A stretch of DNA of 64,000 bases from Rhizobium bangladeshense. GTDB lineage: Bacteria; Pseudomonadota; Alphaproteobacteria; Rhizobiales; Rhizobiaceae. Positions 20,647 to 54,551 of the stretch are shown here, piece by piece. How positions within the stretch are numbered: position 1 is the stretch's first letter; the number at the start of each line of letters is the position of its first letter. Location: assembly GCF_017357245.1 (NCBI RefSeq), contig NZ_CP071612.1, forward strand, positions 1,491,001 to 1,555,000, given 5' to 3'. Both the position numbers and the translations under genes were made by a program. The notes under the pieces are model-generated. The model did not search any database. It saw nothing but the letters and a program-made list of their open reading frames with translations, and was not told where the DNA came from.

Positions 20647-22530
20647 CTATCCTGCCATTGCCTCTTCATATTCGGAGGACAGCATCAGCCACTCTTCCTC
20701 GGCGGCGGCGAGCTTCGCCGCAGCCTCGCCGCGCTGTTTTGCCTTTTCGGCGGCTTTGGCGGGCGTTTTCTCATAGAGCGCCGGATCCGCAAGTTCCGCA
20801 TCAAGGGCCTGAATCTGTTTCTCCAGCTTCGCCGTCAAGGATTCGATTTCGTTGATCTTTTTCTTCAGCGGTGTCAGCGAGGCGCGCCTTTCAGCATTCA
20901 GCTTGCGCTGGTCGGCCTTCGATGTCGTCTCGTCGGGGGCCTGCGGCTTCTCTTCTTTCCTCTTGCCGGAACTGACGATCAGGTCTCGGTATTCGTCCAT
21001 GTCGCCTTCGAAAGTGGTGACCGTGCCGCCATTGACCAGCCACAGCCGGTCGACCGTCGCCTCAATGAGGTGACGGTCGTGCGAGATCAGGATCACGGCG
21101 CCGTTGTAATCGTTCAGCGCTTCGATCAGGGCACGGCGGCTGTCGATGTCGAGATGGTTGGTCGGCTCGTCGAGAATGAGGAGGTTCGGCGCATGGAAGG
21201 CGGCAAGCCCCATTAGCAGGCGTGCCTTCTCGCCGCCGGAAAGATCTTTGGCGGCGGTTGCCATCTTCTCGGTCGCCAGCCCCATTTGCGCGACGCGGGC
21301 GCGCACCTTGGCTTCCGGTTCGGCGGGCATCAGACGCCGCACATGTTCCACCGCCGACTGTTCCGGGATGAGGTCGTCGAGCTGGTGTTGCGCGAAGAAG
21401 CCGATCTTCAGGCTCGGTGCGAGGCTTACTTCGCCACTTTCCGGCGACAGTCGCCCTGAGATGAACTTGGCGAAGGTCGACTTGCCGTTGCCGTTGGAGC
21501 CGAGCAAGGCGATGCGATCGTCGTTGTCGATGCGCAGGTTGAGGTTCTTCAGGATCGGCTTGCCGGGTTCGTAGCCGACGGAGCCGCCCTGGATTGCAAC
21601 GATCGGTGAGGCCGGCTGCTTCTCCGGCTCCGGGAAGGTGATCGGTTGCACATGGTCCTCGATGACGGCTGCAACCGTTCCCATGCGCTCGAGCGCCTTG
21701 ACGCGCGATTGCGCCTGCCGGGCCTTGGAAGCCTTGGCCTTGAAGCGGTCGATGAAGCTCTGCAGATGTTTGCGCGCTGCCTCATTCTTGGCCCTGGCCT
21801 TCGTCTGCAGCTCGTCCGCCTCCGCCTTCTGCCGCTCGAACTGGTCGTAATTGCCGCGGTAGAAGGTGAGCTTCTTCTGGTCGAGATGGACGATGGAATT
21901 GACCGCATTGTTCAGGAGGTCACGGTCGTGGCTGATGATGATGACCGTGTGCGGATAGCGGCGGATATAATCCTCCAGCCACATAGTGCCTTCAAGGTCG
22001 AGATAGTTGGTCGGCTCGTCGAGCAGAAGCAGGTCCGGCTCGGCGAAGAGCACGGCGGCAAGCGCCACGCGCATGCGCCAGCCGCCGGAGAAGGAGGAGG
22101 CGGGTCGGGCCTGCGCCGGCTGGTCGAAGCCGAGGCCGGCGAGGATGCTTGCGGCGCGCGCTTCGGCCGAATGCGCATCGATGTCGACGAGGCGCATCTG
22201 GATTTCGGCGATGCGGTGCGGATCGCTTGCCGTTTCAGCCTCGGCAAGCAGGGCCGCGCGTTCCTTGTCGGCGGCAAGCACAATCTCGATCAGGGAATCC
22301 TCGGTTCCCGGCGCTTCCTGGGCCACCTGACCGATACGCGCCGCCTTCGGGATCGACACCGACCCTGTCTCCGAGCCGAGATCGCCGGTGATGACGCGAA
22401 ACAGCGTGGATTTGCCGGCGCCATTGCGGCCGACCAGCCCTGCTTTCGTGCCCGAAGGCAGCGAAAGGCTGGCATTGTCGAGAAGCAGGCGCCCGGCAAT
22501 GCGGGCAGAAATATCGGTGAGCGTGATCAT
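20647..22530 (-). CDS. ABC-F family ATPase
   Basis: This 627-residue soluble protein has two ABC cassettes and no membrane segment. Walker A motifs are GRNGAGKST and GSNGNGKST, and the signature motifs are SGGWRMRV and LSGGEKARL. A charged linker lies between the cassettes, and the tail beyond about residue 530 is coiled-coil. ABC-F proteins act on ribosomes to resolve translation states. This one resembles the Uup/YheS group, but I cannot assign the subtype. The ATG at 22530 begins MITLTDISARIAGRLLL, the expected N-terminus. Confidence 0.9.
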   Translation of the reverse strand: MITLTDISARIAGRLLLDNASLSLPSGTKAGLVGRNGAGKSTLFRVITGDLGSETGSVSIPKAARIGQVAQEAPGTEDSLIEIVLAADKERAALLAEAETASDPHRIAEIQMRLVDIDAHSAEARAASILAGLGFDQPAQARPASSFSGGWRMRVALAAVLFAEPDLLLLDEPTNYLDLEGTMWLEDYIRRYPHTVIIISHDRDLLNNAVNSIVHLDQKKLTFYRGNYDQFERQKAEADELQTKARAKNEAARKHLQSFIDRFKAKASKARQAQSRVKALERMGTVAAVIEDHVQPITFPEPEKQPASPIVAIQGGSVGYEPGKPILKNLNLRIDNDDRIALLGSNGNGKSTFAKFISGRLSPESGEVSLAPSLKIGFFAQHQLDDLIPEQSAVEHVRRLMPAEPEAKVRARVAQMGLATEKMATAAKDLSGGEKARLLMGLAAFHAPNLLILDEPTNHLDIDSRRALIEALNDYNGAVILISHDRHLIEATVDRLWLVNGGTVTTFEGDMDEYRDLIVSSGKRKEEKPQAPDETTSKADQRKLNAERRASLTPLKKKINEIESLTAKLEKQIQALDAELADPALYEKTPAKAAEKAKQRGEAAAKLAAAEEEWLMLSSEYEEAMAG

Positions 22531-22575
22531 GGCCGGCGTTGTGGCCGAAACTGCCTGCCAAGGCAAGACCGCTTA

Positions 22576-25762: not shown

Positions 25763-26266
25763 TCACGAAGGGCATTTGTCGGTATTCGAAAAATCGACAC
25801 TGCCGTCAGGCTTGAAGACCTCCGGGTTCTTTTCATAAAGCGCGCCAATGACGAGCGGCTTGCTCGGCAGCACCGTCTGGTCGAGGTCCGAGCGGAACTC
25901 AGTCTTCAATTGCTGCAGCACATTGCCGTCCTTATCGACCAGCCGGACATTCACCGAATAGGCGCGGTCCTTGCGCACGCAGTGCAGGTTTTCGCTCTGC
26001 AGCGCGATCTTGTCGTCGATCGGATAGATCTTCTGGTTCAGCACCAGCGGGGCGCCGCCCGCGGGATTTTCAAATTCGGCGATGATCACCGAACCGTCGG
26101 GGATAGGACCTGTCTTCTTCAGGGTCAGCAGATAGGTGGCGCTTGCCACCCGGTAGTTGAAGACGAAGAGGTGGCCTGTGACCTCGACCAGGTTTTCGGC
26201 CTGGCGCTGGCAGGCGGCAAGCAGAAGACCTGTTGCAGCCGCCGCTGCGATTAGATGTTTCCTCAT
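25763..26266 (-). CDS. Predicted lipoprotein of unknown function
   Basis: The product has 167 residues with a lipoprotein signal MRKHLIAAAAATGLLLAAC (Cys19 would be lipidated). The remainder looks like a beta-rich envelope domain (VTGHLFVFNYRVASATYLLTL, VIIAEFENPAGG) and contains two more cysteines. I do not recognise a family. Its ATG overlaps the TGA of the CGNR regulator (ATGA), so the two are co-translated, and AGGAAGAG lies upstream. This suggests the lipoprotein belongs to the same module as the regulator and perhaps the divergent permease. Confidence 0.72.
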   Translation of the reverse strand: MRKHLIAAAAATGLLLAACQRQAENLVEVTGHLFVFNYRVASATYLLTLKKTGPIPDGSVIIAEFENPAGGAPLVLNQKIYPIDDKIALQSENLHCVRKDRAYSVNVRLVDKDGNVLQQLKTEFRSDLDQTVLPSKPLVIGALYEKNPEVFKPDGSVDFSNTDKCPS

Positions 26267-26808
26267 GGCATCTCTTCCTTCTTGCGGTGATAGTGCCGCT
26301 TCGCCTTGGCGCGGTTGCCGCAGACCGCCATGTCGCACCAGGCACGGCTCCTGTTCTTGCTGCGATCGATGAACAACCAGCCGCAATTGCCGCAGATCTT
26401 CATGCGCTCCGGATCAGGCATAGCGATCAGCCGGAGCACCGAATGGGCGGTCGCCGCCGCCAAGCTTGCGGGGCTTGCCTGGCGCAAGGTCTTCGCCAGC
26501 GCCTCCAGCAGTCCGGCCAGCAAGTGGTCGTCGCCGCCATCCAGTATACGCTTGCGGAAATAGCGGTCGATCGCTTCTCGAAGCGCGATGAAGTCGACTT
26601 CGTCTTGCGCCGCGACCGGCGCGACCTCGCCAAACAGGGCCCGTTCGGCGCAGAATTTGGCGGCGGCGCGCGGAAAGCTCCGCATCTGTTCGCTCACCGC
26701 GAAGCGGTCGATCCGTCGCGCCGCGTCGTGGCGCAGTACGACGCTGTTGGCGACATCGAGGGCCAGCGCGCCGCCGGCGAAACGGTGAGAAGTCCAGGAA
26801 AAGCTCAT
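26263..26808 (-). CDS. CGNR zinc-finger transcriptional regulator with ABATE domain
   Basis: The product has 181 residues. An N-terminal ABATE-type domain (about residues 8-125, LALDVANSVVLRHDAARRIDRF) is followed by a C-terminal CGNR finger: CGNCGWLFIDRSKNRSRAWC, then MAVCGNRAKAKRHY. These proteins are thought to be DNA-binding regulators. A perfect inverted repeat begins four bases upstream of the start codon, and no ribosome site is seen; the promoter geometry predicts a leaderless transcript. It overlaps the lipoprotein gene downstream and is divergent from a LivH-like permease, so local control of that permease is the natural inference. Confidence 0.86.
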   Translation of the reverse strand: MSFSWTSHRFAGGALALDVANSVVLRHDAARRIDRFAVSEQMRSFPRAAAKFCAERALFGEVAPVAAQDEVDFIALREAIDRYFRKRILDGGDDHLLAGLLEALAKTLRQASPASLAAATAHSVLRLIAMPDPERMKICGNCGWLFIDRSKNRSRAWCDMAVCGNRAKAKRHYHRKKEEMP

Positions 26809-26812
26809 AACG

Positions 26813-26852
26813 AAATTATAACTGGCGAAACGGGTTTTACCAGTTATAATTT
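26813..26852. promoter_or_regulatory. Perfect 13-bp inverted repeat with divergent TATAAT boxes
   Basis: AAATTATAACTGG (26813-26825) and CCAGTTATAATTT (26840-26852) are exact reverse complements, 14 bases apart. Each arm contains TATAAT: 26845-26850 reads toward the permease, and 26820-26815 reads toward the CGNR gene. For each promoter, the -35 position falls on CTGG in the opposite arm. A dimeric protein bound here would block both promoters at once. Confidence 0.75.
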
Positions 26853-26872
26853 GCTGACGCGGAGTCTCCGAA

Positions 26873-27769
26873 ATGGCCTATCTTCTGCAGCAGCTGGCGA
26901 ATGCGGTTCCGCTTGCCGCTCTCTATGCCGCGCTCGCCTTCGGTTATGCCGTCGCCTTCGGCGTGACCAGGCGGGCCGACATCACCTATGGAGCGATCTT
27001 TGCCTTCTCGGGCCAGATCCTGCTGCTTTTTAGCGAAATCGCCTATGTCAGGTTCTGGCTGGTGCTGCCGGCCGCACTTGCCATCGGAGCCTGCGCCGCG
27101 ATTGTCTATTCGCTGGCCGCGGGCATTTGGATCGGCCGCTCGATCATGCTGCCGCTCGCCAGCAAATCGCCGAATATGGTCATCGTTGCCGCGCTTGGCA
27201 TCATGATCGTGCTGATGGAAACCGCCCGCCTTGCCGCCGATACCCGCGCGATTTGGCTGCCGCCCTTCCTGAACGAAGTTGTTGTCTTCTGGAGTGATGG
27301 TTCGTTTAAAGTGACGCTCACCTATATCCAGCTGATCGACACGGCGCTGATGTGCGCCATCGTCGCGATCGGTGCGCTGATCCTCAGGCGCACCGCCTGG
27401 GGCCGCCACTGGCGCGCCGTCACCGACGATCCGCTGGCCGCCGAACTCTGCGGCACCAGCGCCAGGCTTGTCTTTCTTGTTGCCTATGCGGCAGCAGCCC
27501 TCGTCGCCACACTCTGTGGCATTCTCGCCACCTTCTATTACGGCTCGATGGATTTCGGCGCGGGCCTGATGTTCGGGCTCAAGGTACTGCTGATCGCAGC
27601 CGTGGGCGGCTATTCCGATCCGCTGCGTTCGGCAGGCGGTGCTGCCGGGCTTGCAGTCGTCGAAACCATGTGGGGCGCCTATGGCGCCTTTGTCTGGCGG
27701 GACTTGGTGATCTTCTCGCTGCTGGTCCTGCTCTTGGTCATGAGCCGCCGGGAGCGAGTGGTTCTCTGA
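26873..27769 (+). CDS. Branched-chain amino acid-type ABC permease (LivH family), orphan
   Basis: This 298-residue integral membrane protein has about eight hydrophobic segments and the LivH-type pattern. Examples are YAALAFGYAVAFGVTRRADITYGAIFAFSGQ near the N-terminus and the cytoplasmic loop RRTAWGRHWRAVTDDPLAAELCG before a helix. LivH is one of two permeases in transporters for branched-chain amino acids and other small polar solutes. No LivM, ATPase or binding-protein gene is nearby, so partners must be encoded elsewhere. GGAG precedes the ATG. It is divergent from the CGNR regulator and its stop abuts the moaE stop with no gap. Confidence 0.87.
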   Translation: MAYLLQQLANAVPLAALYAALAFGYAVAFGVTRRADITYGAIFAFSGQILLLFSEIAYVRFWLVLPAALAIGACAAIVYSLAAGIWIGRSIMLPLASKSPNMVIVAALGIMIVLMETARLAADTRAIWLPPFLNEVVVFWSDGSFKVTLTYIQLIDTALMCAIVAIGALILRRTAWGRHWRAVTDDPLAAELCGTSARLVFLVAYAAAALVATLCGILATFYYGSMDFGAGLMFGLKVLLIAAVGGYSDPLRSAGGAAGLAVVETMWGAYGAFVWRDLVIFSLLVLLLVMSRRERVVL

Positions 27770-46920: not shown

Positions 46921-46957
46921 CTCCCTCATTCCTCTGACGAGCACAGGAATGAGGGAG
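46921..46957. repeat. Compact copy of the palindromic intergenic repeat
   Basis: 16-base arms (46921-46936, 46942-46957) match at 15 positions around the loop ACGAG. The arm CTCCCTCATTCCT is shared with the larger element at 28269. It lies between ppx and the convergent phytase-like gene. Confidence 0.75.
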
Positions 46958-54518: not shown

Positions 54519-54551
54519 AAAGGGCCCGGCAGCGGAACTGCCGGGCCCTTT
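54519..54551. terminator. Strong bidirectional terminator between aspS and the secreted-protein gene
   Basis: 14-base perfect arms (54519-54532 starting AAAGGGCCCGGCAG, and 54538-54551) enclose the loop CGGAA and give a 3' T-run for aspS and, on the other strand, for the convergent gene. Confidence 0.9.

Follow-up and report, generated by a model that had tools for sequence, protein, structure and literature searches.

A candidate operator shared by a CGNR zinc-finger regulator gene and a divergent LivH-like permease gene in Rhizobium, with related sites upstream of CGNR genes in other phyla

The TetR/tetA systems exemplify local repressors that control their own genes through a palindromic operator spanning divergent promoters. 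The locus described here, which lies in a 64,000-nucleotide stretch of Rhizobium bangladeshense DNA (the window, that is, the whole stretch analysed), resembles that type in having a divergent putative target, a shared dyad over both predicted promoters, and a separate domain that may sense a ligand. The two differ in the reader, which is a helix-turn-helix in the TetR/tetA type and a CGNR zinc finger in the window system; moreover, unlike those of the TetR/tetA type, the dyads at CGNR genes come in total lengths of about 18 or 28 bp, depending on the branch of the family.

The CGNR family is widespread and has a crystal structure, and it is known mainly from that one structure. Jann_2411 of Jannaschia sp. 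(PDB 3h0n), which belongs to the same ABATE-CGNR family as the window protein, is described in the accessible part of its report as a likely dimer, with DNA binding proposed for the finger; that part gives no operator, DNA target, or ligand for it (PMC2954205). Titles and abstract openings in the open-access literature searched report no operator, target, or inducer for the CGNR family. The window protein shares the fold of Jann_2411. Of the two domains that define ABATE-CGNR regulators (PF07336 plus PF11706), the C-terminal CGNR treble-clef finger scored 62.6 bits with PF11706 (cut-off, 24), and the putative N-terminal ABATE domain scored 18.8 bits with PF07336 (E 0.0025), which is under the cut-off of 24.4 that its ortholog L175 exceeded with 28.7 bits.

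In the window, the CGNR and permease genes are divergent, with 64 bp between them (Table 1). The CGNR ATG occupies 26808-26806 on the minus strand, and the permease ATG starts at 26873. The BPD_transp_2 domain of the permease scored above its cut-off of 26.8 bits; against the LivH model NF008011, the protein scored 78.3 bits, far under the cut-off of 379. None of the nine neighbouring genes scanned encodes a LivM, LivG, LivF, or binding protein partner, and the nearest gene product of related kind noted, an ABC-F type protein (20647-22566), is encoded roughly 4 kb away.

Between the two genes lies an inverted repeat whose arms are exact reverse complements with 14 nt between them, each holding a TATAAT aimed at its own gene. 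The arm coordinates and promoter directions are those given in an earlier, sequence-only reading of this DNA. With mismatches allowed, the arms grow to 19 nt and are 89% complementary. Perfect 13-bp inverted repeats with a spacer of up to 30 occur as 4 pairs at 3 places in the window, whereas 20 first-order Markov sequences averaged 0.05. Thus, the palindrome is improbable by chance yet not unique in the window, and by itself it would not mark out the locus. The other perfect repeats, at 46921-46957 and 54519-54551, are possibly terminators.

The −35 hexamers were placed by assuming a 17-bp spacer. Both extend 4 bp into the arm that belongs to the other promoter, in line with the sequence-only reading, but they match TTGACA only weakly (Table 1). 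A σ70 scan listed neither of the two divergent promoters, and the overlap of the putative operator with both promoters holds for the predicted −10 elements. Transcription is predicted to start at the A of the CGNR ATG and, for the permease, near 26857. Because the −10 of the CGNR gene stands so close to its ATG, the CGNR mRNA is predicted to be leaderless. For Sinorhizobium meliloti, the accessible part of a published survey gives 171 leaderless transcript starts, all beginning with AUG (PMC3616915). The distance from the ATG to the site varies by just 3 nt in 87 orthologs, and a conserved leaderless mRNA can be predicted from this.

Table 1. Features of the CGNR/permease locus, in window coordinates
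Feature	Position	Strand	Remarks
CGNR zinc-finger regulator gene	26263..26808	-	181 aa
LivH-like permease gene	26873..27769	+	298 aa; PF02653, 77.1 bits
Left 13-bp arm	26813..26825		AAATTATAACTGG
Right 13-bp arm	26840..26852		CCAGTTATAATTT
Putative operator core TAACTGG-N14-CCAGTTA (28 bp)	26819..26846		Conserved in orthologs; one exact site in own genome
Predicted −10 TATAAT of CGNR gene	26815..26820	-	6 nt from ATG
Predicted −10 TATAAT of permease gene	26845..26850	+	Within right arm
Weak −35 position CTGGCG, permease promoter	26822..26827	+	3/6 match to TTGACA
Weak −35 position CTGGTA, CGNR promoter	26838..26843	-	3/6 match to TTGACA

Conservation was examined in 88 ortholog loci, comprising 29 further genus loci, 28 family loci, 20 distant loci, L102 and L103, and 9 named loci; loci from the own genome or repeats (L001, L002, L060-L063, L107, L108, and L110) were left out. 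Both genes are present in 87 of them. The exception, L080 in genome G241, has a perfect site, although the approximately 0.4 kb of contig beyond it contains no match to the permease. TAAC-N20-GTTA was invariant in all 87 intergenic regions, and two true orthologs outside this count (L109 and L113) also carry the site. Alignment of the intergenic region across Rhizobiaceae had been proposed as the check on the repeat, and the repeat core is kept wherever the gene pair is kept; this conservation rules out a chance palindrome. Every one of the 87 CGNR genes opens with ATG; measured from the outer end of this codon, TAAC starts at 12 to 15 nt, and at 13 nt in 67 of the 87.

The conserved unit is not the pair of 13-bp arms, since TAAC-N20-GTTA is invariant while the −10 hexamers drift. 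Across the 87 orthologs, most of the A and T blocks on the inner side is retained, the centre varies freely, and the −10 bases on the outer side also vary, often on both flanks together. Symmetric outer changes were seen at positions −1/28 (A/T in 56 and C/G in 17 of the 87) and −3/30 (T/A in 41 and A/T in 15). With the core kept and the outer −10 bases varying, the putative operator core can be told apart from the promoter hexamers. Loci of the distant group typically read TTTGACAAGTTAGA in the right arm. In 14 of 18 such loci (L064-L079, L081, and L082), the permease match starts 88 to 148 nt from CGNR, and in the other 4 it starts 66 to 68 nt away; the usual distance is about 65 nt. The mirror-image promoters of the sequence-only reading therefore describe the window locus but are a local form: the outer TATAAT drifts, and the distant group, with its altered right arm and mostly longer distance to the permease, lacks the strict symmetry.

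The pairing of the two genes was followed in the 109 family genomes with an ortholog-type CGNR match, 5 of which had CGNR in two pieces whose coordinates were spanned. The permease was found at E ≤ 1e-60 in 107 of 297 sampled family genomes and was divergent to an ortholog-type CGNR in all 107, with aligned edges 46 to 208 bp apart; G241 and G296 have the CGNR match and no permease. In distant relatives, no Liv gene stood beside the permease at the 6 loci scanned, and 4 of these 6 (L064, L066, L067, and L071) have the TRAP genes DctQ, DctM, or DctP there.

In its own genome, TAACTGG-N14-CCAGTTA has exactly one exact site, and for this reason CGNR looks like a local regulator with a single operator. 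Up to 3 mismatches gave 4 forward sites, versus 7 for a control pattern, and each of the other three has 3 mismatches. The CGNR gene is present in 147 of 148 genus genomes; with up to 2 mismatches, the motif was found in the same number, and the one genome missing, G110, is the sole genome without a CGNR match. At this threshold the reversed control pattern was commoner than the motif, so the tally counts only together with position: among the 22 genomes listed, the distance between the CGNR start and the best site is 11 nt in 20 and 12 nt in 2. An identical 28-mer that matches the motif with 2 mismatches occurs in G004, G009, G013, G014, G016, G019, and G020, twice in G009 and G016, and is perhaps part of a mobile element.

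Paralogs without a permease showed TAACC dyads, and the hypothesis arising from them was noted before a wider search was made. A 15-protein alignment led to 80 named loci, of which five gave no open reading frame (L117, L128, L154, L164, and L191) and one had no usable upstream region (L136). From the other 74, the nine that are orthologous to the window gene, all with an exact site, were set apart, and 65 nonorthologous loci from 13 phyla remained, including L138, whose upstream stretch is short and which was counted as a miss. When every possible 4-mer and 5-mer dyad with a gap of 0 to 40 was scanned, AACC/TAAC dyads ranked first. The top 4-mer dyads were AACC with gap 18 (23 loci), TAAC with gap 20 (21 loci), AACC with gap 8 (15 loci), and TAAC with gap 10 (13 loci); in 20 shuffles, no 4-mer dyad exceeded 6 loci.

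Expressed as a rule, TAACC-N(7-9 or 17-19)-GGTTA with at most 1 mismatch was found at 51 of the 65 loci (shuffles: mean 1.6, maximum 5). Control gaps of 12 to 14, 22 to 24, and 27 to 29 gave 2, 6, and 8 loci (shuffle means, 0.9, 0.9, and 0.7), and the mild enrichment at the latter two perhaps comes from neighbouring sites. TAACC dyads occur at 7.13 per kb upstream versus 0.071 in the remainder of the loci. The broader TAACY-N(7-9 or 17-19)-RGTTA was found exactly at 45 of 65 loci (shuffles: 0.25, maximum 2) and, with at most 1 mismatch, at 54 of 65 (shuffles: mean 4.9, maximum 9), so that about 5 of the 54 matches are expected by chance. The matches cover 12 of the 13 phyla, several of them represented by a single locus. 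Eleven loci fail the TAACY rule; four of these (L147, L160, L167, and L179, examined only post hoc) sit behind a long same-strand open reading frame and may not be first genes. All 15 paralogs for which an open reading frame was placed have the TAACY dyad (shuffles: 1.6, maximum 5), 10 of them being those that had suggested the rule, and none of the 10 checked for the permease has a match to it within about 4 kb; L087, L089-L092, L094, L100, L101, and L106 were not counted. The proposal of an operator for the CGNR/permease pair is partly supported, in that the site is conserved with the pair; it is not peculiar to the pair, however, and accompanies CGNR genes across phyla.

At least two sites are present at 38 of the 65 loci, with centres 37 to 56 bp apart in 37 of these, as if there were one site per divergent promoter, while the window pair shares a single site. 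Divergent neighbours, taken by rule as the longest divergent open reading frames, were scanned at 20 loci. They include four EamA transporters (L139, L140, L148, and L151), two alpha/beta hydrolases (L116 and L119), two glyoxalases (L142 and L155), one AzlC protein (L118), and four other families; 7 of the 20 have no Pfam family, and none of the 20 is a Liv permease. Among 41 long sites, a −10-like hexamer was found at the right half-site in 24, a −35-like hexamer in the left in 18 (best of four offsets), and both in 12. Embedding of the sites in promoters is frequent, not general.

The gaps of exact sites peak at 8 (13 loci) and at 17 to 19 (5, 21, and 6 loci), giving two spacing classes that differ by 10 bp, or one helical turn. 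On a CGNR protein tree of 75 rows, 64 of which carry a spacing label and 11 none, spacing class requires 4 changes, versus 14.2 with shuffled labels, and 0 of 500 shuffles were as low; shuffling of labels does not remove relatedness, and the tree spans phyla. That spacing follows the protein tree is as expected if a CGNR dimer reads the site. Upstream of L137, a distance of about 28 nt between TAACC and GGTTA, noted by eye in this single case, may correspond to a third helical turn.

We regard as the likeliest reading, and as probable though well short of certain, that the dyad is a dedicated operator, where CGNR acts as a dimer to repress both the gene that encodes it and the permease gene opposite. 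The adjacent ABATE-CGNR protein would bind the 28-bp TAACTGG-N14-CCAGTTA directly as a homodimer, with one zinc finger per half-site, two helical turns apart. The bound dimer would block RNA polymerase at both divergent promoters, as each half-site reaches into one predicted −10 and overlaps the −35 position of the other promoter. The regulator itself and the LivH-like permease would thereby be repressed, and a signal sensed by the ABATE domain would release the repression.

Repression and activation cannot be told apart by conservation. The same protein might, at the same site, activate one or both promoters, or repress itself and activate the permease. Weak −35 hexamers are usual for activated promoters and would suit this alternative; however, each half-site extends into a −10 element. 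Repressors typically bind at such positions, and a dimer there would compete with polymerase; we consider activation unlikely. That the dyad is instead the operator of another regulator, of the FadR/GntR type, is suggested by its inner ACTGGT/ACCAGT, which resembles sites of that type. The likeness concerns the half-site alone, and the spacing and extent of the dyad are unlike those of the FadR site. The single exact site in the own genome, the company the sites keep with CGNR genes in 12 phyla with differing neighbours, and the tracking of the CGNR tree by their spacing also speak against a foreign regulator, which makes this reading improbable.

Divergent promoters often have symmetric −10 sequence, and two outward TATAAT boxes could by themselves make a palindrome, one in each arm, as a symmetric bidirectional promoter without a dedicated regulator. 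This is very improbable, given that the outer bases are less well conserved than either TAAC on the inner side or the A and T blocks, both of which remain at loci that have lost TATAAT. Finally, complementary arms with symmetric base changes would also suit an RNA stem, but a hairpin acting as terminator or attenuator is hardly credible, because with the predicted promoters the whole palindrome would be in neither transcript and a terminator scan listed none here.

Beyond the dedicated operator proposed for the window pair, we favour, by a modest degree, the view that a single scheme of DNA recognition is common to ABATE-CGNR proteins throughout the bacterial domain. Fingers would read TAACY half-sites arranged as dyads whole helical turns apart. 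The total length would be about 18 or 28 bp, with 38 bp perhaps in L137, and the dimer geometry of each branch would fix how many turns there are. The half-sites would have diversified in Actinomycetota (TGACT, TCACT, and GAACC) and sporadically elsewhere (TAATG in a Bradyrhizobium), variants that were all noted by eye. If so, sequence could be used to predict operators in a family that carries the label "putative stress-induced transcription regulator". With a half-site rule that allows two spacings, direct tests of binding sites, targets, and sensing become feasible, beginning with a compact 40-bp intergenic region, and the family would offer a natural set for asking how one dimeric regulator family shifts between operators one helical turn apart.

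A later set, mainly of Actinomycetota, was drawn from the other CGNR genes of 18 genomes behind the named loci (16 new after 14 repeats were removed) and 20 more stretches of those genomes. In a first pass over 36 loci, 13 gave no gene under the open reading frame rule and one was already in the set; the site was present at 7 of the remaining 22 (shuffles: mean 0.53, maximum 4), and the control gaps gave matches at 4 of the 22. In a second pass, genes were placed from the Pfam match, and 34 loci were scored, with L220 (at a contig end) and L237 (a repeat) left out. The site was found at 9 of the 34 (shuffle mean 0.95, maximum 5); 6 of these matches fall among the 28 loci from four Actinomycetota and 3 among the 6 other loci. 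For 17 of the 34, the start of the gene had to be guessed, so some of the misses may be misplaced starts. The TAACY rule is therefore strong for the first set, but in Actinomycetota it applies only in part. A 6-bp test free of any assumed half-site peaked at span 30 in the later set (8 of 34; shuffle mean 1.3), with several other spans reaching 5; the peak fits the 28-bp class plus one base per side, a reading chosen post hoc. Dyads of similar geometry with the other half-sites named above were noted by eye at the paralogs L213, L228, and L236 (Actinomycetota) and at L224, in the Bradyrhizobium genome.
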